Source: a virus. From it: 64,000 nucleotides of DNA. The translations under genes and the position numbers were made by a program. The notes under the pieces were generated by a model, which made no database searches, was not told where the DNA came from, and worked only from the letters and a program-made list of their open reading frames with translations. Location of the stretch: positions 1 through 64,000 of IMG/VR virus record IMGVR_UViG_3300047171_000080. One strand, 5' to 3'. The stretch's first letter is position 1, and the number at the start of each line of letters is the position of its first letter. Of the stretch, positions 2,323 through 49,154 are shown in pieces.

Positions 2323-3043
2323 CGAGAAGTGCCGCCCATCCGTTCGCACGATCGACCGCGCCGACGCCGTACTTCCAGTTGCCCTTGACGCCGTCGCGCA
2401 GTGCGATCGCCATCGCGCCCTCGTAGCCCGTGTTATAGGCTTCGAAGCCGAGAATGTCGGGATCGCCGTTGGGTACGAGCTTCGCGAGCGCCGGGTTCGC
2501 CGCGAAATCTTTGCGCGCGCGCTCGAGATTATTCCGGAGAATGCTCGCCGCGAAGTCGACGCCGTACAGCGGATCAAGCAGCTTGTCGATAATCTGCGAG
2601 TCGGTGAGCTTTGCGAATTGCGGATCGCCCTTCGCCGTCGTGACGTCTTCTTGCTCGATGCCGACGTCTTCGTGATCGAGCGCTTGCGCGGCCGTCTCGC
2701 CCGGCTTGGCGTCTTGGCGATTCGGGTTGATCGCCTTCGCATCGTCGCGTGACTCGCCGTCGAGTAACGACTGCAGTTGCGAAAGCCTCACGCGATTCTG
2801 CGCAGCCGATTTCACGATGATGCCCGCGAGCGCAACGGCCTGCGATTTCGTCACTTGGTGAATCACGCCGCCGGTCGTCGGCAGCGGTCCGATCGCGATC
2901 GTGCGCGACTCGATCAGCTGCGCGAGAACGGTGATCTTGTCCGGTGCCGGCTTCGTCGGCGTCGCGACGATCGGAAGCGGCGGATGCGGCCGCGTAAGTA
3001 TGATGAGCAGCGATTGAAAAAGGCTCTTGATGAACGTCAGCAC
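2315..3043 (-). CDS. Membrane-anchored transglycosylase-like protein
   Basis: Encodes 242 residues from a GTG start. Residues 4-18 form a hydrophobic N-terminal anchor followed by a proline-rich stretch. The C-terminal third has PLYGVDFAASILRNNLERA and FEAYNTGYEGA, resembling the AYNxG signature of lysozyme-fold lytic transglycosylases. I infer a cell-wall glycan-cleaving role. The catalytic glutamate cannot be assigned with confidence. It lies between the L,D-transpeptidase-like gene and the amidase with overlapping ends. Confidence 0.5.
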   Translation of the reverse strand: MLTFIKSLFQSLLIILTRPHPPLPIVATPTKPAPDKITVLAQLIESRTIAIGPLPTTGGVIHQVTKSQAVALAGIIVKSAAQNRVRLSQLQSLLDGESRDDAKAINPNRQDAKPGETAAQALDHEDVGIEQEDVTTAKGDPQFAKLTDSQIIDKLLDPLYGVDFAASILRNNLERARKDFAANPALAKLVPNGDPDILGFEAYNTGYEGAMAIALRDGVKGNWKYGVGAVDRANGWAALLDE

Positions 3044-3588
3044 GCGAGCTCCAACGGGTCGCCGATGATCGTGTAGACGACCGTTTCCGAATCCAGCTGC
3101 GGCTTCAAGAACGCGACGAGGCGCGCGAGATCCGCGTTATGCAGCCGCGTGCAGCCTTCGGTCTTGCAAAGTTCTTGATAGGCCGCAAACGGGTCTGGAG
3201 CGTTGCTACCGCCGCCGTGGCACATGATGCCGCCGCGGCCGAAGACCGCGAGCTGCCCGATCTTGCCGACGATGCCACCGATCTCGACACCGTTCGCATT
3301 TTCGCCCGACGCATGATGGCTCGCAACGAGCTTCGCGAGTAGCGCTTCGTCGATGTCGCTGACGTCGATTTGCGCGGAGCCCTCGCTCGCGATCGGCGCA
3401 AACTGTTCGATGCTCGTGAGTACGAAATGACCCGGTGGACACCATCCGTCGTGACCGTAGCCCGGGCCGCCCCAGGCGTCGCCGCCCGCTTCGAACTCGA
3501 GATCTCCGAACGAGTCGGTCGCGATCGCACCATTGGGATCAAATACTTTGTATTTTGCGTTGGGACGATCGAAAATTACGTGCAGCAT
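3037..3588 (-). CDS. L,D-transpeptidase (YkuD)-like protein
   Basis: Encodes 183 residues. The motif region MCHGGGSN (H124) followed 22 residues later by TEGCTRLHNADL (C146, R148) matches the HxnSxGCxR active site of YkuD-fold L,D-transpeptidases, which form or exchange 3-3 peptide cross-links through the cysteine. There is no signal peptide. In a phage this could cut or reshape the wall or be carried in the virion. The fold assignment is reasonable; the exact activity is inference. Confidence 0.65.
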   Translation of the reverse strand: MLHVIFDRPNAKYKVFDPNGAIATDSFGDLEFEAGGDAWGGPGYGHDGWCPPGHFVLTSIEQFAPIASEGSAQIDVSDIDEALLAKLVASHHASGENANGVEIGGIVGKIGQLAVFGRGGIMCHGGGSNAPDPFAAYQELCKTEGCTRLHNADLARLVAFLKPQLDSETVVYTIIGDPLELAC

Positions 3589-12105: not shown

Positions 12106-13472
12106 ACGCCGCCCATTGGTGCCTGCGTGTTGGCCGCGTGAATGGCCCACGACCATCCGCCTTCGGAAGGGTCGAACGTCTCGTCGATGCGACGCGGCCA
12201 ATACTTGTCGTTAAACGCCGTATATGGCAAGCCCGACACCTGAAAGAGCGACGTAATATCGACCTGAGCTAGCAGTTTTTCGGTAACGGCCATACTGAAA
12301 TCAATCGAATACTGCTTCATCGACAGCTGCCGCCAGTACGAGAGCGCAAGCGCGTTACACTTCGCGGGCGTCAGATTTGGGAGATAGTAGATGTACCGTT
12401 CGAGACCGCTCTCGCTCGCTGGCTGGTTGAGGCCTTTGAAACTGCCGCCGCTCGAGCTACTCACCGTCGTCGACGTGATCCCAGCCGCGTTCGTCGTCGT
12501 AGACACGTTTTGGTTCGTGCCGAAGAGCGGCGACGACGACGTGATCTTCGAAGACGACGTCTGCGTCACGCCGCCTGCGGATCCGAGGTTCGAATCGACG
12601 CGCCACGTCGTCGACGTCTTCGTGCGCGTCTGGTACGTGCGCACTTCGACGCGGATATTCTTGTTGAATTGGACGCTGTGATCGCCAACGGGCATCGAGA
12701 TGTTGTGGCCATAGGTTGCCGCGATCGTCTTGCGAGTGATCACGTCGGGCGCGACGTAGTTGAGCGTCGCGTTGCTGACCCAAACGTCGACGTCGTCGAA
12801 GAGCGCGCACTGCAAGAGAATTTGCCAGTAGGTTTTGTTGAAGATCCCCGCGGTGAGATTGGTCCCGCCGACCAGTTCCTTGCCGAGCACTTCCGCGATC
12901 GTGAACGACTGCTGTCGCGATCGCAGACCGAGGTTGAACGTCAGTCCTAGCATCGCCGCGATTGCGGCGCCGAACTGCGCGCCCGTCATGTTGATCGGGG
13001 AGAACGTGACCTTGTTGTCGACGAGCGGTGCCGCGAGGCTGCGGCACGGAAAGGTGACCGAGTCATCGGAAAACCGCGCCTCGTAGCGATCGACGACGCC
13101 GAGGAAGCGTTGCGAAAGCTGCGAGATGTCGGTCGAGCCGACGGCGGGCGACGATGGGAAGCCCGCGTAGATCTCCGCGTAGATCGGCTCGCTCGACGTG
13201 TCGTCTGAATTCGCGAGCGCTGCGGTGAAGTCGGGGTTCGACGAGATCGGGAGTTCGATCGACGCTTCGTCCGTGGCGCCGTGCGCGTTGAACGTGATGC
13301 TGTACTTCACCGGGACGTACCGCGAGCCGTTGAGCGCGACGACCGCGCGCGGCGCCGACCTATCGTAGAACGGGTTGAACGTCGTCGGCGAAAGCGCGAT
13401 GAAGTCGCTCTCGGTGTAGGATCCGCCCGGAACAGCCTTTGGGATATTCCCGTCGGGAATCGTTACGCTCAC
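12102..13472 (-). CDS. Baseplate hub protein (gp27/late control D-like)
   Basis: Encodes 456 residues. Position between the LysM-type baseplate protein and the spike, plus the VALNGSRYVPVKYSITFNA start and RFLGVVDRYEARFSDDSVTF block, fits the hub ring that joins tail tube to spike. A serine- and threonine-rich insertion lies at about residues 285-345. Confidence 0.7.
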   Translation of the reverse strand: MSVTIPDGNIPKAVPGGSYTESDFIALSPTTFNPFYDRSAPRAVVALNGSRYVPVKYSITFNAHGATDEASIELPISSNPDFTAALANSDDTSSEPIYAEIYAGFPSSPAVGSTDISQLSQRFLGVVDRYEARFSDDSVTFPCRSLAAPLVDNKVTFSPINMTGAQFGAAIAAMLGLTFNLGLRSRQQSFTIAEVLGKELVGGTNLTAGIFNKTYWQILLQCALFDDVDVWVSNATLNYVAPDVITRKTIAATYGHNISMPVGDHSVQFNKNIRVEVRTYQTRTKTSTTWRVDSNLGSAGGVTQTSSSKITSSSPLFGTNQNVSTTTNAAGITSTTVSSSSGGSFKGLNQPASESGLERYIYYLPNLTPAKCNALALSYWRQLSMKQYSIDFSMAVTEKLLAQVDITSLFQVSGLPYTAFNDKYWPRRIDETFDPSEGGWSWAIHAANTQAPMGGV

Positions 13473-14395
13473 TTTGCACTACCGAGCGGTGGCAAAAGCA
13501 CAGTCACGACTCGCGTCGACGGTAGCCGCGGCGTCGGCACGCCAAGGATAGATGCGAGCGTGAATGCTTTCGTGACGTCACCATAGGTTTGCGACGCGAT
13601 CTCGTAGAGCGACTGATTCTGCACGCGCACGCTGCTCGGGCTCTGCCCCTGCTGCACGTTGCGCTCGATGAGCGTCAGTGCCGAGATGAGCCGCGTCGCT
13701 TGAAAGAAGCGCGGATCTACTTCCGGGAGTGCGGCTGCGTATGTATTTGCCTGCGCTAGAGCCGTCTGAGCGGCCGCGAGAACGCTCGCCGTATTGGAGC
13801 CCTGCGCCGCAAGCGGGCCCGCATTATTGATCGACTGCTGCAGCATCGGAAGCGACGACGGATCGATCGTATCGGTAACGTCCGGGTCGATTGATACGAG
13901 CGTATTGTACGACGACGTCGCCGTCGTCGAGAGCGCGCTGACCTGAGCGTCGAGGCTGACTGGTGCAGTGGTCGAAAACGCGCCGTTTGCATCGCGCGTG
14001 ATCTCGATCGTGATATCGTAGCCGGCGCGCGCTTTGTGGCGATAGGTCGGCACGAACGCCGTCACTTTGCAGAAATACTTCTCGCTCAAATACGAGACGA
14101 GCACTTCGGTCCCGGACACCATGTACGAGCGCAGTGTCTTGATCTTCGTGTCGACGTTGGCCGTGACGTAAAAAGCGCCGATCCAAGTTACCGGATCGGG
14201 CTGCGGGCCGTGGCTCTGGACCGCGCGGCCGCCGCCGTCGAACTCCTTGACCGTCGTGCGCTGTTTGCCAGCGCCGATCTTAAGCTCGGAGGGGCACTCT
14301 TCGCTACCGAAGGTGACCGCCCCGATCGTCAGCGGCGTCTCGCCCGGAGACGCGGGCGTCACCATCGCGGCCGTCAGCGTCGGAACTTGCGCCAC
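13469..14395 (-). CDS. Baseplate/tube-initiator protein with LysM-like end
   Basis: Encodes 308 residues. The N-terminal half (residues 20-140) looks like the baseplate protein that follows the tape measure in myoviruses. The C-terminal 55 residues (QNQSLYEIASQTYGDVTKA to VVTVLLPP) read as a LysM-like module, a fold shared with Mu gp43/T4 gp53-type wedge components. Last gene before the plus-strand insert. Confidence 0.65.
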   Translation of the reverse strand: MAQVPTLTAAMVTPASPGETPLTIGAVTFGSEECPSELKIGAGKQRTTVKEFDGGGRAVQSHGPQPDPVTWIGAFYVTANVDTKIKTLRSYMVSGTEVLVSYLSEKYFCKVTAFVPTYRHKARAGYDITIEITRDANGAFSTTAPVSLDAQVSALSTTATSSYNTLVSIDPDVTDTIDPSSLPMLQQSINNAGPLAAQGSNTASVLAAAQTALAQANTYAAALPEVDPRFFQATRLISALTLIERNVQQGQSPSSVRVQNQSLYEIASQTYGDVTKAFTLASILGVPTPRLPSTRVVTVLLPPLGSAK

Positions 14396-14425
14396 GGACG
14401 ACCCTCCTGTGGTAGGTTCTTAGCG

Positions 14426-14743
14426 ATGGCCAGCAATTGGGCAAAGCGCTTCGTCCAGGACGATGACGGCGAGCCGGAGCTCGTCGACGTCACCCCACCT
14501 CCGAACGCGAGCGCGTGGTTTCTCGCCGAAATGGCAAAGCATCGAGCCGAGGCACACGTGCGGCGCGTGAGAACCGTGCGCTATGCGACGCGCGCGCTCG
14601 CGTGGTGGCTTGCGATGTTGCTGCCGCTGCCGTCGTGGGTCAACGCGATCGCGTTTTGCGTGACCGTTGCCCTCGCGCTCGCAACGCTGCTTGAGGCGGA
14701 GCGATGGCTCACCGCGCATCTCTCGGCACGCGCGGCGATCTAG
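14426..14743 (+). CDS. Plus-strand membrane-protein moron
   Basis: Encodes 105 residues starting MASNWAKRFVQDDDGEP. An acidic N-terminus and a basic stretch are followed by two hydrophobic helices (about residues 55-68 and 71-88). It is the only plus-strand gene within about 34 kb of minus-strand late genes and fills the gap between the tape measure and baseplate genes; its stop overlaps the tape measure stop. Such single inserted genes are usually expressed in the lysogen. No strong promoter is visible upstream and the function is unknown. Confidence 0.6.
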   Translation: MASNWAKRFVQDDDGEPELVDVTPPPNASAWFLAEMAKHRAEAHVRRVRTVRYATRALAWWLAMLLPLPSWVNAIAFCVTVALALATLLEAERWLTAHLSARAAI

Positions 14744-16806
14744 CGGAAGAGCCCGGCCCCGACCGTCTGGGGATTGGCGAGCGTCGGCGTCGTGACGAGT
14801 GAGCCGATGCCTTGAAGGCCGCCCTTCACTTTTTTCGCGAAGTCCGCACCGTCTTTGACGACCATGTTTGGGAAGTGCAGATGCACCGACTGAATCACTT
14901 TATCCTGATCGCGAATCTGCTGCGCGTCGGAGTCGCTGATCGAGCCGAGGCCACCGTGCTTTTTCGCGTAGTCGCGTCGGCTTTGCAGATACTTCGCGCG
15001 CAGAACAGACGCTTCGTCTTGCGATACGCCGCCGTCGGTTAGGAGCAGGCCGAGCGACGCAACGCCACCGAGCCGACCGATGATCGACAGGATGCCGGCG
15101 AACGCCCCCTCGACGGTCGCCGCGCCTGCGCCGATATCCGTCGCCGCAGCGAGAATCTTCGTCCCGATGCTTCCAAAGTTGTTCGCGAACCCGAGCAACG
15201 GTAGAACGATACGGAGATTAAGCATCGAGGCGAACTTCGCACCGCCGGTGACGAGCGCGCTACCGAGACCGCCAAAGATGATGTTGTCGATCATGCCCCA
15301 GAGGCCGCCCGTGGCTTTCGCCGCGCCCGCGCCTCCGGCTGCACCGGCACCGGTGGCCAGCGCCGCGAGATCCGCTTTGGCCGCGAACGACTCCATCGCG
15401 CCGGAGAAGCGATTGAGCGCACCGATCGCGCCCGCGATTCCCAGCACGAAACGAAGGCCGAATGCACCGGTGATCGCAACGCCCGTTTCGAAGATCCGCT
15501 TCGCAACGTCCGGATTCGCCGCGAGGAAGCCGACGAGATTGGTCAGCCGGGTGTTGAGATCTGTTAGCCACGCTGTGAGATGCGGAAGTTCCGGAAGTGC
15601 GATGACCGCCGCGACGTTGCGAAGATTGGTCGTGAAGGCGTTCCACTGATAGAAGAAGTCCTTTGCATACGCTTCCCACTGGCCTTCGACGCCCGGGATG
15701 CGGTTGAACGCGGCCTGATTTCGCGTCATCTGCTCTTGCGTCGTCTTGTCCGCGACGATCGACACGAGCCGCTGCGCTTCTTTTGCGAAGACGGCCTGAA
15801 TGTCGTGGAGCCAGTTCGCACCGCCGTTGCGGCGATCGGCCTTCTCCATCAACTCGCGCATCGTGCGCAGATGCTCGATCATCGGAATGAGCGAGAGCTG
15901 CCCGTCTTTCGTGAGGTACTTAAACGACCCGTCTTTGTCGCGCAGATCGAGATCGCGTAGACCCTGGCGCTTCGCAGTCGCAAGCTCTGCCGAAGGCGTG
16001 ACGGCCATCGCGTTGAGAACGAGATTGTTCATGGCCGTACCGCCCTTGCCTTGCAAGAAGCCGTTCTGCGCCATGACCGCGAGGTATTGGAAGATCGTGT
16101 TCTCGTCGACGCCCATCTTCACGGCGTTCGGGATGAAGTATTTGCCCTGCGTCACGAGTTGGTTGAGCTGCGCGTTCGTCGTGAATTGCAGACGCGCCGT
16201 GTCGTCGAGCATCTTCTTCATCTTCTCGGGCGTGTAGGCCTGAAAGAAGTGCGCGAATTGCGACATCTGCTCGATCGTCTCGGTCGGATCGGTCTTGCCG
16301 CCCGAGGCCATGTATCGCACGTCGGCGTAGCGCGCCATCTGCGGGAACATCGCTTTGAGCTGGTTCGGATCTTTGAACGCGACCGTCGCCGCCTTCTGCA
16401 GCTCGTTCGCGATCGTGACCGCGCTCTGCGCCGTCGCGCCGGAAGTCTCGAGCACCATCGCCTGCAGCATCTTGCGCTGCGCGTCGTTTGCGCCCGTCGC
16501 AAGGGTCACGCCCGTCATCGCACGCTGCAGCTTCGCCGCTTCATCGACGGAGAACGCGAGTGCCGCGCCGCCGACGAGCGCGCCGCCGCCGGCGAACATC
16601 GTGCCCATGCGCGCCTGCTTCGCGCGGATCTCCTCGATACGGCGCTGATAGCGCATCATCGCGGCCGTGTTACGATCGATGAGACCTTGCTGGCGCGCGA
16701 GCTGCTCGTTTGCGGCGCCGGTCGCCGATGCGAGCCGCTGCATGGTGACGAGACCGTTGGATTCGAACTTCAGCGCGATGCCGACGATCCAGTTGCCCAT
16801 CGCCAT
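14740..16806 (-). CDS. Tail tape measure protein
   Basis: Encodes 688 residues. A helical N-terminus (QLARQQGLIDRNTAAMMRYQ), the glycine-rich hydrophobic segment MGTMFAGGGALVGGAALAF, and central hydrophobic helices (about residues 420-600) are those of TP901/Mu-type tape measure proteins, which set tail length and pass into the host membrane at injection. Length would predict a tail of about 100 nm on the usual 0.15 nm per residue rule. Confidence 0.85.
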   Translation of the reverse strand: MAMGNWIVGIALKFESNGLVTMQRLASATGAANEQLARQQGLIDRNTAAMMRYQRRIEEIRAKQARMGTMFAGGGALVGGAALAFSVDEAAKLQRAMTGVTLATGANDAQRKMLQAMVLETSGATAQSAVTIANELQKAATVAFKDPNQLKAMFPQMARYADVRYMASGGKTDPTETIEQMSQFAHFFQAYTPEKMKKMLDDTARLQFTTNAQLNQLVTQGKYFIPNAVKMGVDENTIFQYLAVMAQNGFLQGKGGTAMNNLVLNAMAVTPSAELATAKRQGLRDLDLRDKDGSFKYLTKDGQLSLIPMIEHLRTMRELMEKADRRNGGANWLHDIQAVFAKEAQRLVSIVADKTTQEQMTRNQAAFNRIPGVEGQWEAYAKDFFYQWNAFTTNLRNVAAVIALPELPHLTAWLTDLNTRLTNLVGFLAANPDVAKRIFETGVAITGAFGLRFVLGIAGAIGALNRFSGAMESFAAKADLAALATGAGAAGGAGAAKATGGLWGMIDNIIFGGLGSALVTGGAKFASMLNLRIVLPLLGFANNFGSIGTKILAAATDIGAGAATVEGAFAGILSIIGRLGGVASLGLLLTDGGVSQDEASVLRAKYLQSRRDYAKKHGGLGSISDSDAQQIRDQDKVIQSVHLHFPNMVVKDGADFAKKVKGGLQGIGSLVTTPTLANPQTVGAGLFR

Positions 16807-16809
16807 GCG

Positions 16810-17292
16810 TTACGTGTCCTCTCCCGGATTGAGCCGCACGATCGGCCGCATGCCGACCGCGGCGCCCGCCGCGAGCTCCGCGATCGCGACGACTTCTTCT
16901 TCGCTTTCGTTCATGCCGATTTCGAAAGCGGGTCTCGCCGGCACGGGGTTGCCCGTGCGATGGTTGATGTAACCGAATTCGTGATAGCCCATGATCGGAT
17001 CTGCGGACGCGATCACGGCTTCGTTCTCGAAGACGTCGCGTTTGACCGATTCCATGAGCTCGCCCGTGCGCTTGAGCGGTTCGTCGGGCGAGAAACCAAG
17101 ACGTTCGCGTTCGGCCATCGTCGACGGCGCGAGCGGCGCGAGCTTGCTCTGATCGCCGAAAACGTTCTTCACGTTGGTCTGCACGACGACCGACGCGGTT
17201 TCTGCTGCTTCGTGCAGCACTTCGTCTTGCAGCGCGGCGAGTTTTTCGAAGTGTTCGGCCAGCTGACCGAGACCATCGAAGAACATGCTCAT
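16810..17292 (-). CDS. Virion morphogenesis protein (gp10/Mu G-like)
   Basis: Encodes 160 residues. LAPLAPSTMAERERLG with DEPLKRTGELMESVKRDVF and MGYHEFG..RPAFEIG is the pattern of HK97 gp10 / Mu gpG-like tail completion proteins. Lying between the tail chaperones and the tape measure gene is unusual for this family, which more often sits near the connectors. Confidence 0.7.
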   Translation of the reverse strand: MSMFFDGLGQLAEHFEKLAALQDEVLHEAAETASVVVQTNVKNVFGDQSKLAPLAPSTMAERERLGFSPDEPLKRTGELMESVKRDVFENEAVIASADPIMGYHEFGYINHRTGNPVPARPAFEIGMNESEEEVVAIAELAAGAAVGMRPIVRLNPGEDT

Positions 17293-17295
17293 GCG

Positions 17296-17798
17296 TTACT
17301 TCTCCGACGTCTTCGGTGGATCGCGCCATTCGCCGCGTTCGAAATCATAATCTTCACCGGCGTTGAGGCCGAAGATGATTATCCACTCGCTGAGCTCGCG
17401 CCGCGACATTTCAAGCGCTTCGGAAAGCGTGATGCCGCCGCGCGAGGCATAGAGCAGCGCCGCGACTAGTCTTCGGTCGAGGCGCTCGGTTCGTTTTTTA
17501 GGTCTTCCGCCGCGGGCGGTGAGTAGAGATCGCTGTACCGATCGGCGAGCGTGAACGCGTCGGTAGCCGTTAGCCGCTTTGCGACTTTCATAAACTCGAG
17601 CTCGTTCTTAAACGGCACGACCGGCTCGCCGTCGAGTGTTCGGATCGATGCGATCGCATACGTCTTCATCGCACGCATTGGCGATCGCGAATTACCGACC
17701 ATATCATCGGCTTGCAACGATTCCGACGCGGTCAGCTCCGCGATCTCGACCTTTACGCCGCTCGGAAGTTCGACGAGTGTTCTTTCGCGTTCGCTCAC
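17296..17798 (-). CDS. Tail assembly chaperone GT, made by -1 frameshift
   Basis: The reading frame of the G gene shifts -1 at the slippery heptamer (17493-17499) and continues to the TAA at 17296-17298, adding about 67 residues. The new part includes RRLVAALLYASRGGITLSEA and LNAGEDYDFERGEW, which is the T-domain layout of lambda G-T, and has no start codon of its own near its beginning. The fusion recruits tail tube protein to the tape measure protein. No separate gene is needed in 17296-17465. Confidence 0.8.
17466..17798 (-). CDS. Tail assembly chaperone G
   Basis: Encodes 110 residues from a GTG overlapping the tail tube stop (GTGA). Soluble, acidic C-terminus (LKNEPSASTED). Place between tail tube and tape measure genes and the frameshift site near its end identify it as the G chaperone that coats the tape measure protein before tube assembly. 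Confidence 0.8.
   Translation of the reverse strand: MSERERTLVELPSGVKVEIAELTASESLQADDMVGNSRSPMRAMKTYAIASIRTLDGEPVVPFKNELEFMKVAKRLTATDAFTLADRYSDLYSPPAAEDLKNEPSASTED
17493..17499 (-). promoter_or_regulatory. Programmed -1 ribosomal frameshift site A AAA AAC
   Basis: On the minus strand the zero frame reads CTA AAA AAC ten codons before the G stop, giving the heptamer A AAA AAC, the strongest bacterial -1 slippery sequence. The -1 frame is open to 17296 and encodes a typical T domain. Confidence 0.85.
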
Positions 17799-18259
17799 GA
17801 TACGTTGATCCGCTCGGTGCCTTCGAACTCGACGGTCGCCTTGAGGATCTCTTTGCGCGACCACGTGCCCGGCTTGTAGTTGTTGAACACGCAATACGTG
17901 TGCTGGAATTCCGAAATGTCGGTTTTGTCGGCCGACGGCTCGGTCGTCGTGATCGTGCAATAGATGTCTTGCTCGCCCGCATAGTAATTCGCGTCGAGGA
18001 AGGCCATGAACGTCGCGAAATCAGCCGAGCCGCGCTCGACTTCGATCGAGCCTTTGATTCCGTCGGGGATACGCTTGTTGACGACGCGGCCGCCGTTGTC
18101 GATCACGTCGCTTTTAAGCATCGTGTCGACGTTCTCGACGTTGAACCGCGTGCGGAAGCCGTCGAGCACGATCGTGTCGCCGGTATCGTTCCGCGTGATC
18201 TGCGTCGAGAGCGCGGTGCCGGTAAGGTAGAGCCCCGGAGGTGACGGGGTCGTCGCCAT
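17795..18259 (-). CDS. Tail tube protein
   Basis: Encodes 154 residues immediately after the sheath gene and before the chaperones. GSIEVERGSADFATFMAFLD and the closing EILKATVEFEGTERINVS strands fit the beta-barrel tube proteins of contractile tails (Mu gpM-like). The call rests mainly on order and size. Confidence 0.75.
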   Translation of the reverse strand: MATTPSPPGLYLTGTALSTQITRNDTGDTIVLDGFRTRFNVENVDTMLKSDVIDNGGRVVNKRIPDGIKGSIEVERGSADFATFMAFLDANYYAGEQDIYCTITTTEPSADKTDISEFQHTYCVFNNYKPGTWSRKEILKATVEFEGTERINVS

Positions 18260-18328: not shown

Positions 18329-19900
18329 CTACGCCGCCGTGCTGGCGGGAGTCGAGTTGACCGTCGTGCCGACTTGGATATTGCCGAGCACGATTTTGAT
18401 GTTCGAATTCGTCGTCACGTAGTCGTTCGAGGTGAGCAGCCCTTGCGAGATCGCGGTCGGCGTGTTGTTCGTCAGATCCGCGACGACGTTATATGCTGCG
18501 ATCTGACCCGTGCTGAGCAACCCTTGAAGAGCCGTCTTCAGATCCTTGCGATAGCCCGATCGCTGCTTATCGCTCGCGAGAGCCGTTTGATTCTTGCCGA
18601 CGTACTTACCGCCGATTTGGCGTACGAGTAGCCCGATGAGATTGTCCATGCGGACGTCGCTGATGTTCGCGCCGCTCGAAGTGAGGCCGTGATTGAGGCC
18701 CCACGCGGTTCCGCCGTCGAGCGGGTTCGTCGCATATTGCAGACCGTAGAGTTGGCGTTGGCCTCGCTCGGCATCGCTGAGCGGGCCTTCGATCGTTCTC
18801 TCCGTCGCGAGAATGCCGAGAATGGACTGAGCGTACTGATTTTCCGGATCGACGTACGCGGGGAGCGAAGCGATGAGCCCCACTATGCTGCCGATCGGCG
18901 AGACGAGGCGTTGCGTGCGCGTGACGACGTCGAGGATGTAGTCCCAGTCCATCGCGAGGACGACGTGCTCATACTGAGCCGTCGCTGCGGTTTCGAGCGC
19001 GATCGCTTCCGCCGTGTCGGTGCCGGCTGGTCCGACCGCAAGCCCCGCGATGCATCGTTCGCTCTGGCAGAACGCTTCGAGCGTCGTTGCGACCGAAAGA
19101 TCGTAGCAAGCAGCGAGCATCACCTGCCCGCCTTGGCACGCGCCGCGCAGCGCGTAGAGACCGGTGCGCGTCGCCGCGGTCGTGCCGTCGGTTCCGAGTA
19201 GCACGGCCGTCGTGACGGTTGTCGCGCCGTCGGTCCCACCGGACGCCGTTGCCGTTCCGGTTACCGGGGCAGCGGTTCCGGTTCCGGCCGACGCCATCAC
19301 CTGACCGTTGGGCACCGAGTTGGGTGCCGTGCCGTTGACGGCGGCCAGGACGTTTGCTTTGAACGTCGGCGCATCGAACGCGGGCGCAGATGCGGAAGCG
19401 TATGCGACGATATTGTTATACGTTACCGGGTTTTGATACGGGAACGTGAACGTCAGCGAGTAAACCGGCTTCGCCGTCGCTGTCCCGCTTTGAAGCGAAA
19501 GAGATCGCGTTGCGCGATTCGCAAGCGAGCCCGTGCAGAGATACGTGAAGAGCACGAGCTCGGCACTCGTCGTGTCCAAGATCTCACTCGTTGCGGCCGT
19601 GTCGGTGCCGTCCGTGACGCGCACGCCGACAAACAAAGAGCAACCAGCGCCGTATGCGTCGATCGCTTCGCTCATAAGCGAATTCGGTAGCGTCGTGCCA
19701 TCGCCCAACGCCTGATATCCGTCTTGGTCCGGAACGCTAAACGCCAGCGCCGTTCCGGGCTTGCCCCAGTTCGCCGCACCGGAGATGCCGAGTACGCTAG
19801 TATTCGCGCCCTTTGGTGATACCGACGGCGCCGGGCTATCGCTGACGTACGATCCGTCGTGCGGAAACGAACCGATCTGCGTATTGGTGACGAATCCCAT
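18329..19900 (-). CDS. Contractile tail sheath protein
   Basis: Encodes 523 residues of the Mu gpL / Phage_sheath type. The N-terminus PHDGSYVSDSPAPSVSPKGA with LGISGAANWGKPG, a central domain (ANVLAAVNG) and the C-terminal NTPTAISQGLLTSNDYVTTN arm are typical. This makes the particle a myovirus. Confidence 0.85.
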   Translation of the reverse strand: MGFVTNTQIGSFPHDGSYVSDSPAPSVSPKGANTSVLGISGAANWGKPGTALAFSVPDQDGYQALGDGTTLPNSLMSEAIDAYGAGCSLFVGVRVTDGTDTAATSEILDTTSAELVLFTYLCTGSLANRATRSLSLQSGTATAKPVYSLTFTFPYQNPVTYNNIVAYASASAPAFDAPTFKANVLAAVNGTAPNSVPNGQVMASAGTGTAAPVTGTATASGGTDGATTVTTAVLLGTDGTTAATRTGLYALRGACQGGQVMLAACYDLSVATTLEAFCQSERCIAGLAVGPAGTDTAEAIALETAATAQYEHVVLAMDWDYILDVVTRTQRLVSPIGSIVGLIASLPAYVDPENQYAQSILGILATERTIEGPLSDAERGQRQLYGLQYATNPLDGGTAWGLNHGLTSSGANISDVRMDNLIGLLVRQIGGKYVGKNQTALASDKQRSGYRKDLKTALQGLLSTGQIAAYNVVADLTNNTPTAISQGLLTSNDYVTTNSNIKIVLGNIQVGTTVNSTPASTAA

Positions 19901-20105: not shown

Positions 20106-20960
20106 TTAGGGTCCTCCGGTGACGTCGGTAATGGGAACGGCGCCGTCGATGGACGTCGCGCTGGATACGGCAAGAATCTTTGTCGCGGGGGTCGTTTTGA
20201 GCACGCCGTACTCGACGGCGAGGATGATGTGATGCTCCCAGAGCGAGTACGACGACTGAGCCGAGTCGATGTGCCCGTCCATGAGCTGCTCGACTTCGAG
20301 CGGCGTGCCGTCGGAGAGAAAGAAGTAGCGGCTGTCTTCCGTGCCGATGGCTTCCGTGAGAATGTCGGCGAGATCGAAACGCTGCTGCGGGCTCGATGCC
20401 CACACGATGAGATCGAGGGAACGCGCAACGCGTTGAACTTCTCGCGCGACGGATCCGTTCGAAGCGCCGACGTTGCATTGCAGTTGCGGCGAACCGGTCA
20501 CCGAAAGACCATCGCCGCTCGCCGTCGCAACAACGCCCGCGATCGCGAGCTCGTTGATCGCCGCGGCGGCGTTCGTCGCGATCGTCTCAAGCGTATCGGT
20601 CGCGCCGGGAGAGAGATATGCCGCACGCACCGGCGTCCCGAAGAAAAGCAGGACGTTGATGCCCGCGCCGCTCGTGCCGGCGAACGTGATGACCCCGTCA
20701 TCGACCGAAGCCGAGAGCGGACACGCCGGTTCTGGTAGATCAAAGGTGTCGTTCTTCGGATAGCGCGATACGTTGCGCGACGTTCCGCGGTCGGAGATTG
20801 AGACGATCGTCTGCTTCTGGTTGAGGATCTTCACGAGTTCGGTCGACGCGGGAAGACCGACGACTACTTGGTTCGGCGTCGCCCATCCGGCAGCATTGAT
20901 CGCGTTATTCGCCGCGTTTTGAAGCGTCTCCATGACGTCTTGCAGTCGCGCGATGCTCAC
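20106..20960 (-). CDS. Tail completion/terminator-like protein
   Basis: Encodes 284 residues. An N-terminal helix pair (LQDVMETLQNAANNAINAAG) and QVVVGLPASTELVKILN, then a beta-rich middle and VAREVQRVARSLDLIVWASS, resemble head-tail joining or tail terminator proteins placed just upstream of the sheath gene. Family not certain. Confidence 0.55.
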   Translation of the reverse strand: MSIARLQDVMETLQNAANNAINAAGWATPNQVVVGLPASTELVKILNQKQTIVSISDRGTSRNVSRYPKNDTFDLPEPACPLSASVDDGVITFAGTSGAGINVLLFFGTPVRAAYLSPGATDTLETIATNAAAAINELAIAGVVATASGDGLSVTGSPQLQCNVGASNGSVAREVQRVARSLDLIVWASSPQQRFDLADILTEAIGTEDSRYFFLSDGTPLEVEQLMDGHIDSAQSSYSLWEHHIILAVEYGVLKTTPATKILAVSSATSIDGAVPITDVTGGP

Positions 20961-21313
20961 GACTTCAAGACCTCGTTGAGCGCTGCGAGAAACTGATGTT
21001 TGTTATACGGCTTCGATACGAAGCGCACGCCGATCGCCGCGAGTTTTTGGATGACCGAGTCCATGCCGGCGGACGAAACGACGATCACGTGTCGCGCGGT
21101 TTTCTGCGCGACGATCATCTTCGCAGCCTCATCGCCGTTGAGGACTGGCATCGATACGTCGAGCACCGCGGCGTCGGGTTTGAATTTGCGACACGCTTCA
21201 ACCGCAAGCGCGCCGTTTTCGACTGCGGCGACAACGGTATGGCCCGCGTTCGTGAGCACTTGGCGAAGAATGTCGCGCGGGAGCGATGAGTCGTCGGCGA
21301 CTACAAACTTCAT
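20957..21313 (-). CDS. Stand-alone CheY-like response regulator receiver
   Basis: Encodes 118 residues, a complete receiver domain and nothing else. The acidic pair D7/D8, phospho-acceptor D52 in LDVSMPVLNG, S81 in VVSSAG and K101 in FVSKPYN are all at the positions required for phosphorylation by a histidine kinase. Both ends overlap neighbouring virion genes (tailspike upstream, tail completion downstream) by four bases, so it is a settled member of the late operon and not a recent passenger. No kinase is encoded in the window. What it does in a phage particle operon is unknown. Confidence 0.9.
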   Translation of the reverse strand: MKFVVADDSSLPRDILRQVLTNAGHTVVAAVENGALAVEACRKFKPDAAVLDVSMPVLNGDEAAKMIVAQKTARHVIVVSSAGMDSVIQKLAAIGVRFVSKPYNKHQFLAALNEVLKS

Positions 21314-23346: not shown

Positions 23347-23577
23347 CTAGACGACCCTCAAGTTTCCGGCGACGACGATCGTCCCCTCAATGGTGATAGG
23401 CCCCGTCGCGACCTGTTGCGTGCCCGCCGCGACGGTGTACGTCGAACCCGACGCAACGTCGGACGGTAAGCTCGACGAGCCCGACGTTGGCAGAATCGAC
23501 GAGTCGATCGTGTCGGGCGACGTGATCGTCATACGACGACCGCTCGCGTCGAGGTAGAGCGGCTTGCGCGAGGCCAC
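23347..23577 (-). CDS. Small structural protein
   Basis: Encodes 76 residues from a GTG start, directly abutting the tailspike gene. LYLDASGRRMTI at the start and the C-terminal TGPITIEGTIVVAGNLRVV, a short beta-solenoid-like turn, are common in fibre-associated proteins. Possibly a spike cap or chaperone. Confidence 0.6.
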   Translation of the reverse strand: MASRKPLYLDASGRRMTITSPDTIDSSILPTSGSSSLPSDVASGSTYTVAAGTQQVATGPITIEGTIVVAGNLRVV

Positions 23578-23580
23578 GCG

Positions 23581-24102
23581 CTACGCCGTTATGTCGCCTT
23601 CGTTATACGTGAAATTGAACGCCGTCGCCGACGTCGCGATACCGACACGCTGCACAAGATAGCCCGCCGTGAGCGCCGGCGTTGCGACCGCCGCGCCGAC
23701 GGTCCCGAGATAGACGGGCGCGCCAACGGTGAGGCCGGTGAGACCCGACACGTTGCCGTTGAAGTACACGGTCAACGTCGTGCCGCTCGAGCCACCAACG
23801 AGCACGAATCCGTTCGCTTCTTTCGCGGCGCTCGCAGCCGATGCGTCGGCATTGCGAACGTTCAGCGTGCCAGCGTTCGAGTAGACGTTTACGAGCGCGC
23901 CGCTCGCAATCGTTTCCGATGCGAGAACGGAAAGCGTATCGGGACCGATGCCCGTAGGCAACATCGTGTTATCGAGTTGACCTGCTGCATTGAGCGCAAT
24001 GATCGAACCCGCACTCCCAGCGCCGGCCGACGCCTGGAGCGCGCGAACTTGTGTGCGTCGGCCCGTCGTCGGGTCAAGCGTAAGATATGCGTTACCGGCC
24101 AT
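23581..24102 (-). CDS. Decoration/fibre-tip-like protein
   Basis: Encodes 173 residues. It starts MAGNAYLTLDPTTGRR; the middle LPTGIGPDTLSVLASETIASG and VYLGTVGAAVATPALTAG match a beta-rich fold often seen in phage fibre-associated or capsid-decorating proteins (DUF2190-like). No enzyme motifs. Confidence 0.6.
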   Translation of the reverse strand: MAGNAYLTLDPTTGRRTQVRALQASAGAGSAGSIIALNAAGQLDNTMLPTGIGPDTLSVLASETIASGALVNVYSNAGTLNVRNADASAASAAKEANGFVLVGGSSGTTLTVYFNGNVSGLTGLTVGAPVYLGTVGAAVATPALTAGYLVQRVGIATSATAFNFTYNEGDITA

Positions 24103-24114
24103 TTGACGATCTCC

Positions 24115-24777
24115 CTAAGCGAGCACGATAGAGGGCTGCGGATCCCAAAAGATCATCGTCGGAGTCTCAGCGACGCCAACTTGCAGCAAGAAAACAGCAT
24201 TGGGAAGTGCGGGAACGCTTTGCGTAAGCGTGCCGTTTAAGCCGAGGAAGATTGGCGCGCCTGGCGTCCAGTTCCAGAAACTCGCGCTCACCGGTCCGTA
24301 CGTGATGAGGCTGATTTCCGAGCCCGCGATACCAGCGGAGACCGTGATAAACGCCGCGGCTTCGGAGAGTGCGAGGTTCGTCGGATCGTCGTAGATGAGC
24401 GTGCCATCGGCTTGCGAGATGACGATGCGTTCGCCGGAGATATCGATCGCCGCGATCGCGGTGAGTGTCGAAGACGCCGCAGGCCCTGGCGGACCTTGCG
24501 CGCCAGGGTCGCCTTTGGGGCCCTGGATCGCGGCTTGCGTGATCGGCACGGGCGTTACTCCGGGAATCTCGACATCGACGTCGCTCGTCGGCACGATCGC
24601 GACGGTGTTCTTGGCGGCTGGCGCGATCGCGATCGATCGCGCGGAGCTCGCGCTGCGCGAAACGGAGACCCCGCGCGATCCGCTGCGGTTGATCGTCGTC
24701 GACACGCGCGGCGCAGCGACCACGGTCGCGGACGGTGTGGGCGCAACGGTGACGACGACGTCGACGTCATCGCTCAC
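24115..24777 (-). CDS. Collagen-like structural protein
   Basis: Encodes 220 residues from a GTG overlapping the upstream stop (GTGA). A valine- and alanine-rich N-terminus leads to a short Gly-X-Y run (GPKGDPGAQGPPGPA, about residues 82-96) and a 120-residue C-terminal domain that shares the NxxPG..FLGLNGTLTQ style with the decoration gene downstream. Probably a trimeric appendage. Confidence 0.65.
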   Translation of the reverse strand: MSDDVDVVVTVAPTPSATVVAAPRVSTTINRSGSRGVSVSRSASSARSIAIAPAAKNTVAIVPTSDVDVEIPGVTPVPITQAAIQGPKGDPGAQGPPGPAASSTLTAIAAIDISGERIVISQADGTLIYDDPTNLALSEAAAFITVSAGIAGSEISLITYGPVSASFWNWTPGAPIFLGLNGTLTQSVPALPNAVFLLQVGVAETPTMIFWDPQPSIVLA

Positions 24778-25199
24778 GAATGCGTGACGCTCGCAGTGAT
24801 CACGAAGTCGCCGTAGCAGATGCGTTCGGAATCGCCGCTCGGATACGTGACGTAGAGATCGTACACGTATGTATTTTCCGGCGGCGTTTCGGAACCGACG
24901 GCCGCGGCAGTCTGCGCCAGCGGCACGTAGATGCTCTGCGTTGCGCTTGCGGCGAGGAAGAGATCGATCGTCCCGGCCGTACCGCCGAGCACGATGCTCG
25001 CGGTCGCCGTTGGCGTCGACGAGAGCGTGGCGACTGGCGTCGGCGAATTGTAGGCCGTGCGGATCATCATGAGCGCCGAGCAGCCCGTGAGATCTTGAGC
25101 AACCGGCGGATCGCCGCTTACGAGCGTTAGCTGTTGCCGAAACGTAGAGCCCTGCTCGGCCGCCGTATCGCCCGTGAAATCGAGCCGTTGCGCAGCCAT
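24774..25199 (-). CDS. Hypothetical virion protein, BppU-like
   Basis: Encodes 141 residues. QGSTFRQQLTLVSGDPPVAQDLTG..ALMMIR followed by VYDLYVTYPSGDSERICYGDFVIT is the pattern of small beta-sandwich proteins (BppU/DUF-type) attached to fibres and baseplates, here next to the collagen-like gene. Confidence 0.6.
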   Translation of the reverse strand: MAAQRLDFTGDTAAEQGSTFRQQLTLVSGDPPVAQDLTGCSALMMIRTAYNSPTPVATLSSTPTATASIVLGGTAGTIDLFLAASATQSIYVPLAQTAAAVGSETPPENTYVYDLYVTYPSGDSERICYGDFVITASVTHS

Positions 25200-25208
25200 C
25201 GGGCCTCC

Positions 25209-25985
25209 CTAGTTTGAAAGCTTTTCCGCGATGACGATGTTGCCGCTCACACCCGTGAGGTCGCTCGAGAAGATCGACGCGCACTCGTAGCGATCGGAGT
25301 TCGGAAAGTTGATGCGGTCGAGTTCGACGAGCTGCTCACCCGGAATGAGCGGCACGTAGATCAAGAAGCGCTCGCGGTAGAGCACGGTCGGGATCTTGGG
25401 ATCGCGCGCGTCGCTAACTTTGTTCAGCTGCTGCAATCCGACGTAAAGCGATGCGGGCGTCGTGCCCGACGATTCGAACGAGTAGAGCCCGTTCGAAAGC
25501 GTGAGCACTTCCTCGGTCGCTTTCGTGAAGCCGGAATAGCCGGGAGTCGCGGCCGATCCGCTCAACGGTTGTTGCGACGCGGCGCCAGCACCGGGGAACG
25601 GCCGCGAGATGAACACGTTCTCGTCCGTGCGGATCCATAGCGTATCGCGCGTCGGTCTTTTCTGCACGACGGTGAAGACGCTGCCGTCGTTTCCGTAGCC
25701 CGTTTGCGTACAGACGTCCTGAAGTTGCAGCGATTCGTTGTTGCACAGCGCCGTGTAGACCAAAAGATCGAAGGTCTGGTTCTCGATCTTCGCGCGCGAC
25801 GTCGTGCGCGCGACACGCGCCTGTAAGCCGGAGATGACCGGCGTGTTGGCCGAGATCGAGTTATTCGTCGTCGACGACAGACGGCGCACGTCGTACGTCT
25901 GTCCGAGCACCGAAGCCGCGGCGCCGCGGCCTTGCTGGATCGCGTAGTCGATCTGCGCGATATCGGTCGGTCCGAAGAACGACAC
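25209..25985 (-). CDS. Virion protein of unknown role
   Basis: Encodes 258 residues. No recognised domain. The position among head-completion and fibre genes and strands such as RERFLIYVPLIPGEQLVELDRI suggest a structural protein. Confidence 0.6.
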   Translation of the reverse strand: MSFFGPTDIAQIDYAIQQGRGAAASVLGQTYDVRRLSSTTNNSISANTPVISGLQARVARTTSRAKIENQTFDLLVYTALCNNESLQLQDVCTQTGYGNDGSVFTVVQKRPTRDTLWIRTDENVFISRPFPGAGAASQQPLSGSAATPGYSGFTKATEEVLTLSNGLYSFESSGTTPASLYVGLQQLNKVSDARDPKIPTVLYRERFLIYVPLIPGEQLVELDRINFPNSDRYECASIFSSDLTGVSGNIVIAEKLSN

Positions 25986-26995: not shown

Positions 26996-27263
26996 TGTGC
27001 GGCTCCTTTGTCTCAAGCGGAAGCGTCGGCTCCGGAAGTTCTTGCGGCTGCGCGATACCGGTTACGGTCGCAGCGCGAACGCTTGAATAGGCGATCGCAT
27101 TACTCACGCGCAGCTGGCGTGCGATCTCGGCCAAGAGTTCGACCGCAGCGATCGCGACCGTCATGCCGAGCGCCGCGACGGACATCGGCGTCTCGATCGA
27201 CATGAGCTGCTGCCGCGCGTTTTTGGCGCTAGCGACTTGCTGATCGATCTCTTCGTTACGCAA
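26943..27263 (-). CDS. Hypothetical head-region protein
   Basis: Encodes 106 residues, most likely from a TTG overlapping the upstream stop. An N-terminal helix (EEIDQQVASAKNARQQLMS), a hydrophobic stretch (about residues 29-45), and a glutamine- and lysine-rich tail. No family recognised. Confidence 0.55.
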   Translation of the reverse strand: MRNEEIDQQVASAKNARQQLMSIETPMSVAALGMTVAIAAVELLAEIARQLRVSNAIAYSSVRAATVTGIAQPQELPEPTLPLETKEPHNGKAQQQSRRAQGQNRK

Positions 27264-28086
27264 CGGCCCCGCCTCCGCCGCCCTTACCGCCGATGGAACG
27301 CACGTAGTTCTCGCCGCCGAGAGCTTCTTCAAGCTGCTCGCAATAGAGTTTGTATTGTGCGTAGCGCGCGCGCACTTCGTCCGGACGAAACGTCGTGACG
27401 TCCGCTTTTTGAAACTGGAGCGAAAGATTCGCCGATGCCATCTGATTTGCGAGATAATCGCAAAAGGCGATAAGCCCGTAGAGCGTCTGCGATCCGGCAG
27501 CTGAGTTGATCGTAATCTGCACCGGGCAGACCGTGCCGGAGTTCACGACGACGATGTTGGTCGTGCCGACGACCGACGCCGCGATCGTAAACGGCTCGAC
27601 CGACGAGCTCGCGATCTGCAGCTCGGAATAGTACGGCGAAAGATACTGCGGTGAAAAGAGATCCGCCGGCATGACGCCGACGCCCGCGTAGCCGAACTGT
27701 CCGGCTGCGTTGTTCACCGCGAGCGCCGAGTTGAGTGCGATCGCGTAAAGCGGCGACGATTCCGATGGATTGACCTGATTTGCCGGAAGCGCGAAGTCCG
27801 ACTCTTGCACGGTATAGGTTGCCGTGACGAGATTGCCGCTCGCGGGCGTGATCATGTACGTGAGCACGTCGCCCACGGCCGGGCGACCAGCGAGGCGAAA
27901 CGACGACAGCGCGTTACCGGTGAGCAGCTGCTCTTCGCTCGGCGCCATGTTGTTGAGCCGATACTCGAGATCTTCGCGGTACCACGTGAAGCGCCAGCCG
28001 AAGAGTCGGCCAGCTTGCGCGGTGCCGGCGAACGGTACGCCGAGGTGACGTCGGACCGCGACTTTTTGGGTCTCCGTAAGGCTCAC
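27256..28086 (-). CDS. Head-tail connector-like protein
   Basis: Encodes 276 residues directly after the major capsid gene. N-terminal LTETQKVAVRRHLGVPF and a helical C-terminus (EEVRARYAQYKLYCEQLEEALGGEN-type pattern) suit an adaptor. The glycine-rich end GGKGGGGG is disordered. The assignment is by position. Confidence 0.55.
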   Translation of the reverse strand: MSLTETQKVAVRRHLGVPFAGTAQAGRLFGWRFTWYREDLEYRLNNMAPSEEQLLTGNALSSFRLAGRPAVGDVLTYMITPASGNLVTATYTVQESDFALPANQVNPSESSPLYAIALNSALAVNNAAGQFGYAGVGVMPADLFSPQYLSPYYSELQIASSSVEPFTIAASVVGTTNIVVVNSGTVCPVQITINSAAGSQTLYGLIAFCDYLANQMASANLSLQFQKADVTTFRPDEVRARYAQYKLYCEQLEEALGGENYVRSIGGKGGGGGAVA

Positions 28087-28171: not shown

Positions 28172-29695
28172 CTAGTACGGCGAAGCGGCTTGGAGGATCA
28201 CGCCGCGCTTGTAGCGCTGCCAATCCGAGGACAGCACGATCGGCGGCTGCGACGCTTTGTCGGTGCGGGGCACGAAGTCGCCGACGTAGTCGTAGGCGCA
28301 CTTGATGACCTGGCCGAGCGTGTCGATCGCGGCGAGCGAGCGGAACTTGATCCGATTCACCCACCGTTCGTCTGCGACGTCGCCGACGCGCGCAACGATG
28401 TTCGCCGCGTCTTTGGCGCCGCGGAACGGATGCTCCGCGATCACGTCTTTGCCGAAGACGAACGCGTGCCGCAGCGCGAACCCGCCTGCGGGAGCGTTGT
28501 ACGCCGGAAGCTGCGTCGCTTCCGTGAACTCGATGCCCCAGCCGGCGGCGATGACGCCGTCCTTGAAGTAGCGGCCGCGATCCCAGTTGGTCGCCGTCGC
28601 ACGCTGAAAGCCCTGATCGCCGTAGAACGACGCGAGCAACGTCGAGTCGATCGCGCAGCCGTACAGGCCGTTGGGCAGCTTCGGAATACCGCGCCGCTTG
28701 AGGATCGACACGGCGTACGGCAGCATGACCGACGGATTCATCACGTTGGTGATCGCCATTGCTTCCGCCGTGGTGATCATCACGTTGTTCGCGTTGGTCG
28801 GACGGACGACGTACGAACCGTCTTTCTTACGCGGATCGAGCGGCGCGCCCACCGCGAGGCTTGCGAACTGCCCTGCGTCGATCGCGACCATGCGATCGCC
28901 GATGTTCAGCGGGCCGATTGCAGCGTCGAGCGATGCGATACCGCTCGTTCCGAAGGTTTGCGAACCCGTCTGCATATACGACCCGTTCGTGGCGTCCGGC
29001 GTGCCGGCGACCACGTTGGCCAGATCCTTGATCAGCCCCGTCGCCGCGTCGATGAATGCCACCGGCATTTTGTTCGTCGACGATACCGCCGTCGGTGCTG
29101 GATACGACGGCAGCGCCGTCGTGGAGAACTGCGTCAGAAACCCGCTGAGGTTGTCGACTTCGATCGATGCGCTCGTACCGGCCACGGCCGTCTTGACGAA
29201 CGTATCGCCCGAGTCATACGCCTGAAACGCGCGGTTGACGGTGATGAGCTCGAGCGAGTTGCCCGACTTCTGCGCCAGCTTCTCCATGTTATCGATGTAG
29301 AGGTCGGCGATGAACGCTTCTTGCCCGAGAATGTTCGTCGGGATGAAGCCGGGCCATTCGTTGAGCGTTGCGACCCACTGTTCGAACGCACGGACGTCGG
29401 CCGTCATGCCGTTGTCGAGGCCCGTGTTGTTCGCGGGATTGAGCGGCGTCGTGTTCGGCGTGATCAGCGCGGACGACGTGAACGTCTTGGTTTCGCCGAT
29501 GCGCGCATCGAACCAATCTTCGGCCTTGATGTCGCGCGGTCGCAGAACGAGCGTCGGCTCGAGCGAGTCGCGAAGCAGTCGCTCGAGGAACCCGAGCTGC
29601 TCGATGACCTGTTGGACATTGGGCGGGAAGCCGTTCCCGCCGTTGCCGTTGATGGCGAACTGCTGGATATCGAAATAGAAGGGCTTCTTGCCCAT
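28172..29695 (-). CDS. Major capsid protein
   Basis: Encodes 507 residues, ATG preceded by AAGGAG. Position between scaffold and connector genes, size, and the block VRFLERLLRDSLEPT-like start of the N-arm plus NANNVMITTAEAMAITNVMN and the C-terminal DWQRYKRGVILQA fit HK97-fold capsids. The first 14 residues are MGKKPFYFDIQQFA. The FDIQQF-A stretch matches Prp cleavage sites, so the mature protein probably starts at A14. Confidence 0.8.
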   Translation of the reverse strand: MGKKPFYFDIQQFAINGNGGNGFPPNVQQVIEQLGFLERLLRDSLEPTLVLRPRDIKAEDWFDARIGETKTFTSSALITPNTTPLNPANNTGLDNGMTADVRAFEQWVATLNEWPGFIPTNILGQEAFIADLYIDNMEKLAQKSGNSLELITVNRAFQAYDSGDTFVKTAVAGTSASIEVDNLSGFLTQFSTTALPSYPAPTAVSSTNKMPVAFIDAATGLIKDLANVVAGTPDATNGSYMQTGSQTFGTSGIASLDAAIGPLNIGDRMVAIDAGQFASLAVGAPLDPRKKDGSYVVRPTNANNVMITTAEAMAITNVMNPSVMLPYAVSILKRRGIPKLPNGLYGCAIDSTLLASFYGDQGFQRATATNWDRGRYFKDGVIAAGWGIEFTEATQLPAYNAPAGGFALRHAFVFGKDVIAEHPFRGAKDAANIVARVGDVADERWVNRIKFRSLAAIDTLGQVIKCAYDYVGDFVPRTDKASQPPIVLSSDWQRYKRGVILQAASPY

Positions 29696-45831: not shown

Positions 45832-46388
45832 CAGGCGATGAACCTCGGCTTCCGTTGCTTCGTGTGACGTTTTTGAGGACGCGCGGACGCGCGCTTCGAT
45901 GAATTGGCGCGACGCTTGAGCACCGCGAGCTGTAACGCGCGGATCGTCTCCTCGTCGAAGATCGCGTGAAGCTCGAGTCGGATCTCGATGCGGCGTCCGC
46001 GACCGTCTTTAATTGGCGGCGGTAAGGTGCCGACGGTGACGATCCGATCGTTCCGATACGCGACATTCTCCAGCGCATCGCATACGCTCTTGATGCACGA
46101 TTGGCCGTCGAATCCGCAGTCGTAGAGCTGGTACGAAACGGTGACCGCGGCCGATTGCCACGGATCGTGCGGCCAGAGCGGATCCGATACGATCGCGAAC
46201 CACGCTTCGGACGTCACACGATCCTCGAACGCTTTCACGGCCGGATTCGTGAACATCGCTTTGACGCCGTTGCGGAGAACGCCGCGACCGTACTTGCGAT
46301 TGATGCTTTCGGGATCGCGAACAGAGAACGTAACGACGATCGGCTCCGGAAGCGCGATCGCGCGCTCTTTCGCTTTCGCATACGTCAT
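45831..46388 (-). CDS. rusA: RusA-like Holliday junction resolvase
   Basis: Encodes 185 residues from ATG at 46388. FDGQSCIKSVCDALENVAYRN-type block (D-x-x-S-x-IK-x-x-x-DAL-x-N-x-x-x-ND) is the RusA core, with acidic residues for metal binding; the basic C-terminal tail would hold DNA. Resolves recombination intermediates before packaging. Confidence 0.75.
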   Translation of the reverse strand: MTYAKAKERAIALPEPIVVTFSVRDPESINRKYGRGVLRNGVKAMFTNPAVKAFEDRVTSEAWFAIVSDPLWPHDPWQSAAVTVSYQLYDCGFDGQSCIKSVCDALENVAYRNDRIVTVGTLPPPIKDGRGRRIEIRLELHAIFDEETIRALQLAVLKRRANSSKRASARPQKRHTKQRKPRFIA

Positions 46389-48912: not shown

Positions 48913-49154
48913 AGGATCGTAAACCCGCGTTTTTCAAACGCCTCGATTATGTCAATGACGATCTCCGGCGCATCGGCTGGAGCAACGCCCACGGTCCGTG
49001 CAATCAACAGCACGTCGATACGGCTGAATCTCGCAAGGGCGACACATGAAGAACAGAGCGTGTGCGCGTCGTCCGCCCAGGTGCATCCGCCATCGCACGC
49101 TCGGCGATCGGTGCATCTGCAGATACGGCACTTCCCAGAGGGCGGCGTTCTCAC
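48909..49154 (-). CDS. Zinc-finger phage protein
   Basis: Encodes 81 residues from a GTG overlapping the nuclease gene stop. GKCRICRCTDRRACDGGCTWAD..LCSSC is a common phage zinc-ribbon (C-x2-C-x-CT-x4-AC-x-GGC-x-W). Helical C-terminus. Confidence 0.75.
   Translation of the reverse strand: MRTPPSGKCRICRCTDRRACDGGCTWADDAHTLCSSCVALARFSRIDVLLIARTVGVAPADAPEIVIDIIEAFEKRGFTIL

Follow-up and report, generated by a model that had tools for sequence, protein, structure and literature searches.

The receiver locus and its structural operon

The source record, a virus contig from IMG/VR, is 64,519 bp long and carries a contractile-tail operon and, near one record end, an integrase gene (63088-63963). 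The window, meaning the whole stretch of DNA that was analysed, comprises 64,000 nucleotides of this record. On the minus strand, the operon runs from the terminase, portal and major capsid protein (MCP) genes through 27256-28086, a stopper gene (25209-25985) and a cassette to a gene for a response-regulator receiver, and continues with the terminator, sheath, 17795-18259, 16810-17292 and tape measure (Table 1). The receiver ORF has 118 codons, begins with an ATG at 21313 and has a stop codon that ends at 20957. The four-base overlaps with both neighbours described in the initial annotation are exact, and the names given there to these neighbours required revision: the “tail-completion” gene is now called a tail terminator, and the “tailspike” shows only a sub-threshold pectate-lyase-like match, of 25.8 bits against a cut-off of 27.

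Table 1. Features of the receiver locus and of the surrounding structural operon, with the evidence for each name
Feature	Coordinates	Strand	Basis
Neck-type protein	16810-17292	-	
Tube	17795-18259	-	Named solely from its position after the sheath
Tail sheath	18329..19900	-	phrog_23, E 5e-24
Tail terminator, directly downstream of the receiver	20106..20960	-	phrog_13532; AlphaFold model compared with PDB
Terminator GTG overlapping the receiver stop, 4 bp	20957..20960	-	ORF coordinates, sequence
Receiver, CheY-type, stand-alone	20957..21313	-	PF00072; residues; same-site orthologues in L151 and L156
Receiver ATG overlapping the stop of the spike-like gene, 4 bp	21310..21313	-	ORF coordinates
Spike-like protein, 678 aa	21310..23346	-	Weak pectate-lyase-like match
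Remaining cassette between stopper and receiver	23347..25199	-	Four ORFs below
Cassette ORF	23347-23577	-	
Cassette ORF	23581-24102	-	
Cassette ORF, collagen-like	about 24115-24780	-	
Cassette ORF	24774-25199	-	phrog_1084
Head stopper-like neck protein	25209..25985	-	AlphaFold and Foldseek; residues 198-258 co-inherited with the receiver
Major capsid protein (MCP)	28172..29695	-	phiKX1 coat protein, 28% identity, E 3e-21

The predicted structures of the two neck proteins were compared with the PDB. The AlphaFold model of the product encoded directly downstream of the receiver (pLDDT 88) has the neck of phage 812 as its top PDB match (E 2.8e-6), with further matches to E217/Pa193, P1, T4 gp15 and lambda gpU, and on this predicted structure the protein is best called a tail terminator. 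For the stopper (pLDDT 79), Foldseek pointed to the neck proteins of Pam3, Chi, Douge and GTA with probabilities of 0.98-1.0, but with E values of about 0.01 or weaker, and its designation as head stopper-like is moderately supported by the model. The predictions indicate that the genes ancestrally flanking the receiver site encode a head stopper, upstream, and a tail terminator. With these identities, the receiver would sit where the genes for the proteins that link head and tail meet.

The window phage has some 4 kb of cassette between its stopper and receiver genes, and this spike cassette is missing from the corresponding site in relatives. In the region 23347-24780, the gene 23581-24102 and the frame 24115-25284, the latter past its collagen-like stretch, both match phrog_4368, probably as a repeated surface-protein module.

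Identity of the receiver

The Pfam family Response_reg (PF00072) matched residues 4-112 of the product with 70.2 bits and an E value of 2.1e-19, the curated Pfam cut-off being 30.2 bits, in agreement with the initial annotation of a complete stand-alone receiver. The residues listed there for phosphorylation were found at the same numbers, namely the acidic pair D7/D8, the phospho-acceptor D52, the switch residue S81 and K101; residue 80, beside S81, is likewise a serine. The codon score of 0.35 per residue is at the level of the adjoining structural genes. A chance ORF was rejected on the Pfam match (E 2e-19) and this normal codon score, and a segment of host DNA or a contig border was rejected because the gene belongs to a structural operon, shares its direction and overlaps its neighbours by 4 bp.

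Among solved structures, the closest class is CheY of the Thermotoga type (PDB 1tmy and relatives), which gave the best match in both the protein comparison (E 1.5e-16) and the profile comparison (E 3.6e-25), with Spo0F and DivK ranking behind. The likeness to CheY lies in the single receiver domain and the same active site. Unlike CheY, the window receiver is phage-encoded in a virion operon with no chemotaxis genes recognised nearby, and the position of Tyr106 is not conserved: in the alignment it is F98 in the window receiver, T in L151 and A in L156, the two related virus records described below. A conserved aromatic residue at this position, as expected of a CheY member, was thus not found across the three phage receivers, and the alignment does not point to a FliM-type output common to them.

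At an E value of 0.1, neither HATPase_c nor Hpt domains were found in the 64.5-kb record, which is possibly incomplete; a complete phage-encoded two-component system, with a cognate histidine kinase or HPt protein, was not found in it, and the phosphoryl donor would therefore come from the host or be acetyl phosphate. From the domain match and the residues retained, the product is almost certainly an orphan, single-domain receiver of the CheY type that is functional and competent for phosphorylation.

Relatives with and without the receiver gene

Relatives of the window locus were found with two-row alignments, and single-protein scans of viral contigs with the receiver, sheath, terminator and MCP returned no relatives. 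The pattern-based scans reach only near relatives, so that receiver carriers are under-counted. The same gene at the same position was nevertheless recovered: in L150/L151 and in L156, stopper and terminator have the receiver exactly between them and no spike cassette. The first two are records of one virus, being 100% identical across 4386 bp, and L156 is distant, with an MCP match of merely E 2e-16 and a stopper match of 1e-67. These other carriers are contig fragments of 4.9-5.9 and 16.9 kb, giving three independent viruses in all. The view that the gene is unique to this phage was rejected on these records. Its rarity, claimed in the initial annotation, is borne out, since only three of 100 related virus records exceed the PF00072 cut-off, two of them at this site (L151 and L156) and the third (L153) with a different receiver. 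In the phage collection, most receiver matches fall on unannotated gut or Listeria-labelled contigs that are possibly bacterial, and these were not counted as evidence.

The window receiver is 47% identical to that of L150/L151 and 36-37% identical to that of L156. The end of the receiver gene runs into the start of the terminator in each of the three viruses, with an overlap of 4 bp in the window, 8 bp in L151 and 1 bp in L156. D7, D8, D52, S81 and K101 are invariant, among 30 invariant columns of 118. A tree was built from 27 receivers, three from the neck site and the rest from cellular genomes, CheY proteins and phage-collection records. The three neck-site receivers group together (91/89, and in 90% of bootstrap trees), a result that may be taken as supportive, not as proof, as L156 sits on a long branch. 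The PF00072 match (E 2e-19), together with five residues invariant in three diverged viruses, argues for a functional receiver.

The receiver of L153 (IMGVR_UViG_2883327909_000003), a related myophage, is a stand-alone protein of 140 aa encoded at 1492-1914, 23% identical and with active-site residues intact. Its gene follows one for a tail-fibre-like protein and adjoins a phrog_1084-like gene. At around 1501-1740, L154, L155 and L187 carry degenerate receiver-like proteins of the same kind, which fall below the Pfam cut-off and stop near profile position 80.

Most relatives lack the gene. In 17 of the 23 loci where both the stopper and the terminator genes were recognised, the two are directly adjacent, with at most 16 nt between them, and on this count a universal neck gene was rejected. 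A virion structural protein would be expected to be kept in all phages with this neck, and the receiver is not. L043 and L148, the closest of the relatives whose records span this region, have an MCP 53% identical to that of the window, and their stopper and terminator genes adjoin without a receiver; in the 61-kb record of L148, a receiver was found nowhere. The initial annotation had named two observations that together would refute its reading, the first being absence of the gene from related phages with identical flanks and the second a lack of D52 conservation in homologues. The gene is indeed absent from these nearest relatives, but D52 is conserved wherever the gene occurs.

Other genes also enter the site, the gap between stopper and terminator being 1417 nt in L135 and 658 nt in L152, where it holds other small ORFs. 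L148 has a cassette at 13350-16883 that parts its 27256-like gene from its stopper gene and encodes, among others, a repeat protein of 675 aa rich in Ala and Ser (14525-16552). Accessory genes thus cluster near the neck genes, but where they do so varies.

Such variability would be expected if the junction simply tolerated extra genes, with the receiver carried along without any phage function, and the spike cassette in the window and the small ORFs in L135 and L152 agree with this. Against it, all five phosphorylation residues are kept at 36-47% identity, and the place and the terminator overlap are the same in three viruses, whereas decay would be expected of a neutral gene across so much divergence; we regard a mere passenger as unlikely. 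Judged from these comparisons, the receiver looks old and functional in signalling, and not like a random passenger.

Co-inheritance with the head stopper

The presence of the receiver goes with one part of the stopper. In the MCP tree, the window groups with the receiver-less L043 and L148 (100/100), and a grouping of the receiver-bearing trio is rejected (p 7e-7). In the stopper tree, it is the MCP grouping that is rejected (p 0.005); the window and L150 are joined (99/97), with L156 placed beside them at weak support (75/75). Both groupings are compatible with the trees of the terminator and the sheath.

The stopper itself is an intragenic mosaic, whose N-terminal 60 residues track capsid kinship and whose last 61 track the presence of the receiver. 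Over residues 1-60, identity is highest between the window and L043 (71%). Over residues 198-258, the last 61, it is 69, 57 and 51% among the receiver-bearing phages and 20-31% to the receiver-less ones. The C-terminal motif of the stopper can be written as GEQL-x-E ... SDRYE ... D-x-TG. The receiver-bearing trio has 28 exclusive columns, of which the last 61 residues contain 15, and any other trio of stoppers has at most 16 overall and at most three in that segment. This pattern was drawn from five aligned stoppers and was noticed after looking. Because the stopper end tracks the receiver while the capsid gene does not, and given the divergence of the carriers, the association is likely to be old. 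The sequences compared show an association of receiver and stopper that appears to have outlasted the exchange of capsid genes and also, for the window virus, the insertion of about 4 kb between the two genes.

Inheritance alongside the C-terminal region of the stopper lends some weight to a role in assembly, in which the receiver would be a neck component or switch that binds this region of the stopper or the terminator. Its phosphorylation state, taken from the host, would then control the joining of head and tail; alternatively, the receiver would travel in the virion and act on the next cell. In keeping with this are the place of the receiver between the stopper and terminator genes in three viruses, the fact that stopper residues 198-258 follow its presence and the capsid gene does not, and the persistence of the link in the window despite about 4 kb between the genes. 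However, most relatives have a working neck without a receiver (17/23 loci), and the pattern comes from few sequences and from inspection after the fact. Recombination in the middle of the stopper would moreover transfer its 3' end together with the receiver without any contact between the products, and such hitchhiking would yield the same mosaic picture. Taken jointly, these neck and virion roles are possible though doubtful. The specific form in which a phospho-regulated neck would read the host phosphorelay and gate joining through the stopper C-terminus, or carry the receiver packaged in the neck to the next cell, is less probable still.

Comparison with known systems

Stand-alone receivers in late phage regions are already known, and gp44 of Alteromonas phage H4/4 is a precedent. 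This protein of 153 aa, in which no DNA-binding domain was seen when read by eye, is likewise a stand-alone late-region receiver with an intact active site and 4-bp overlaps on both sides. It differs in having a C-terminal extension and in belonging to a podovirus, where it is flanked by holin-like and terminase genes and is away from neck genes. The corresponding gene of Alteromonas phage R8W was reported as a PhoB or DNA-binding response regulator (PMC8228385). In the Mycobacterium prophage prophiGD05-1, an annotated DNA-binding protein matches the receiver search and has a histidine kinase beside it.

Other phage systems share only some of these features. Gut phages bear spo0A homologues in which the DNA-binding domain is kept and the receiver is absent (PMC10294663); these too are phage genes derived from response regulators, but the window gene is a receiver without a DNA-binding domain. 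PIT4 is an early phage product that binds kinase domains and acts on host two-component systems; unlike the window receiver, it is encoded by an early gene, and it is not described as a receiver (PMC10714779). Komagataeibacter phage phiKX1, a distant relative of the window phage (MCP 28%, sheath 30% and portal 26% identical), has the same structural-operon order with adjoining stopper-like and terminator-like genes, but neither a receiver nor a spike cassette between them.

Jumbo phages bear divergent cREC domains linked to NAD+/cyclic-nucleotide enzymes (PMC7824862), which resemble the window gene in being phage-borne and receiver-like without a histidine kinase. By analogy with the proposal made for them, the receiver fold could do chemistry other than phosphotransfer; the conserved aspartates, and the existence of cREC as phage-borne receivers outside two-component systems (PMC7824862), would allow this. 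The cREC domains are divergent in sequence and tied to NAD+/ADP-ribose enzymes, whereas the receiver described here is a standard CheY-like one with neck and spike genes as neighbours. No NAD+/ADP-ribose or cyclic-nucleotide genes adjoin it, the spike-like, stopper and terminator genes standing there instead, and this alternative is considered very improbable.

Proposed role of the receiver

From gene order and the trees, the receiver is considered a cargo gene that has long occupied the junction of stopper and terminator in a contractile-tailed phage group. Our leading proposal for its action, put forward tentatively, is that of a late-made receiver, fed by host kinases, that drains or redirects a host phosphorelay. 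It would be translated late, along with the neck proteins, and D52 would accept phosphoryl groups, the donor being a host histidine kinase or acetyl phosphate. The receiver might then drain or redirect the host signal, as a phosphate sink or as a diffusible output of the CheY/DivK kind, and so tune a host pathway late in infection.

This proposal draws on the same site and terminator-start overlap in three viruses, on the tree grouping (91/89), on CheY as the closest solved class, on the late-region precedent of H4/4 gp44 in a cultured lytic phage and on PIT4 as an example of phages acting on host two-component kinases (PMC10714779). Against it, the late position and the co-inheritance with the stopper suit a virion role equally well, the Tyr106 position reads F/T/A, and the comparison covers three independent viruses only. 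The sequence facts support a functional receiver, and the choice among its targets is one that we infer. On balance, a host-directed receiver is ranked above a role in neck assembly or the virion, which in turn is ranked above a passenger.

Phage-carried receivers are usually discussed as accessory genes. In this case, several capsid lineages keep a receiver at the gene junction for the joint of head and tail, and part of the stopper is inherited along with it. If its phosphorylation is used, the phage would either tune host signalling at virion assembly or couple its own assembly to host physiology. In the open-access literature searched, no report was found of a receiver at a phage neck locus or stopper-terminator junction.

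Host matches and other genes of the record

A search with the stopper in 398 Pseudomonadota genomes gave an already known Acidisoma locus as the sole match, and the integrase and DnaB matches to plasmids were too weak to name a host. Elsewhere on the minus strand, 46385-47308 encodes a protein that matches DUF5131 very strongly (E 6e-96), 49151-49780 a PD-(D/E)XK endonuclease-like protein (E 1e-6) and 3037-3588 a YkuD-like L,D-transpeptidase with a weak match (E 7e-4). A DdrB-like single-strand DNA-binding protein (PF12747, E 4e-26), of a family best known from Deinococcus, is encoded at 54809-55822 on the same strand.
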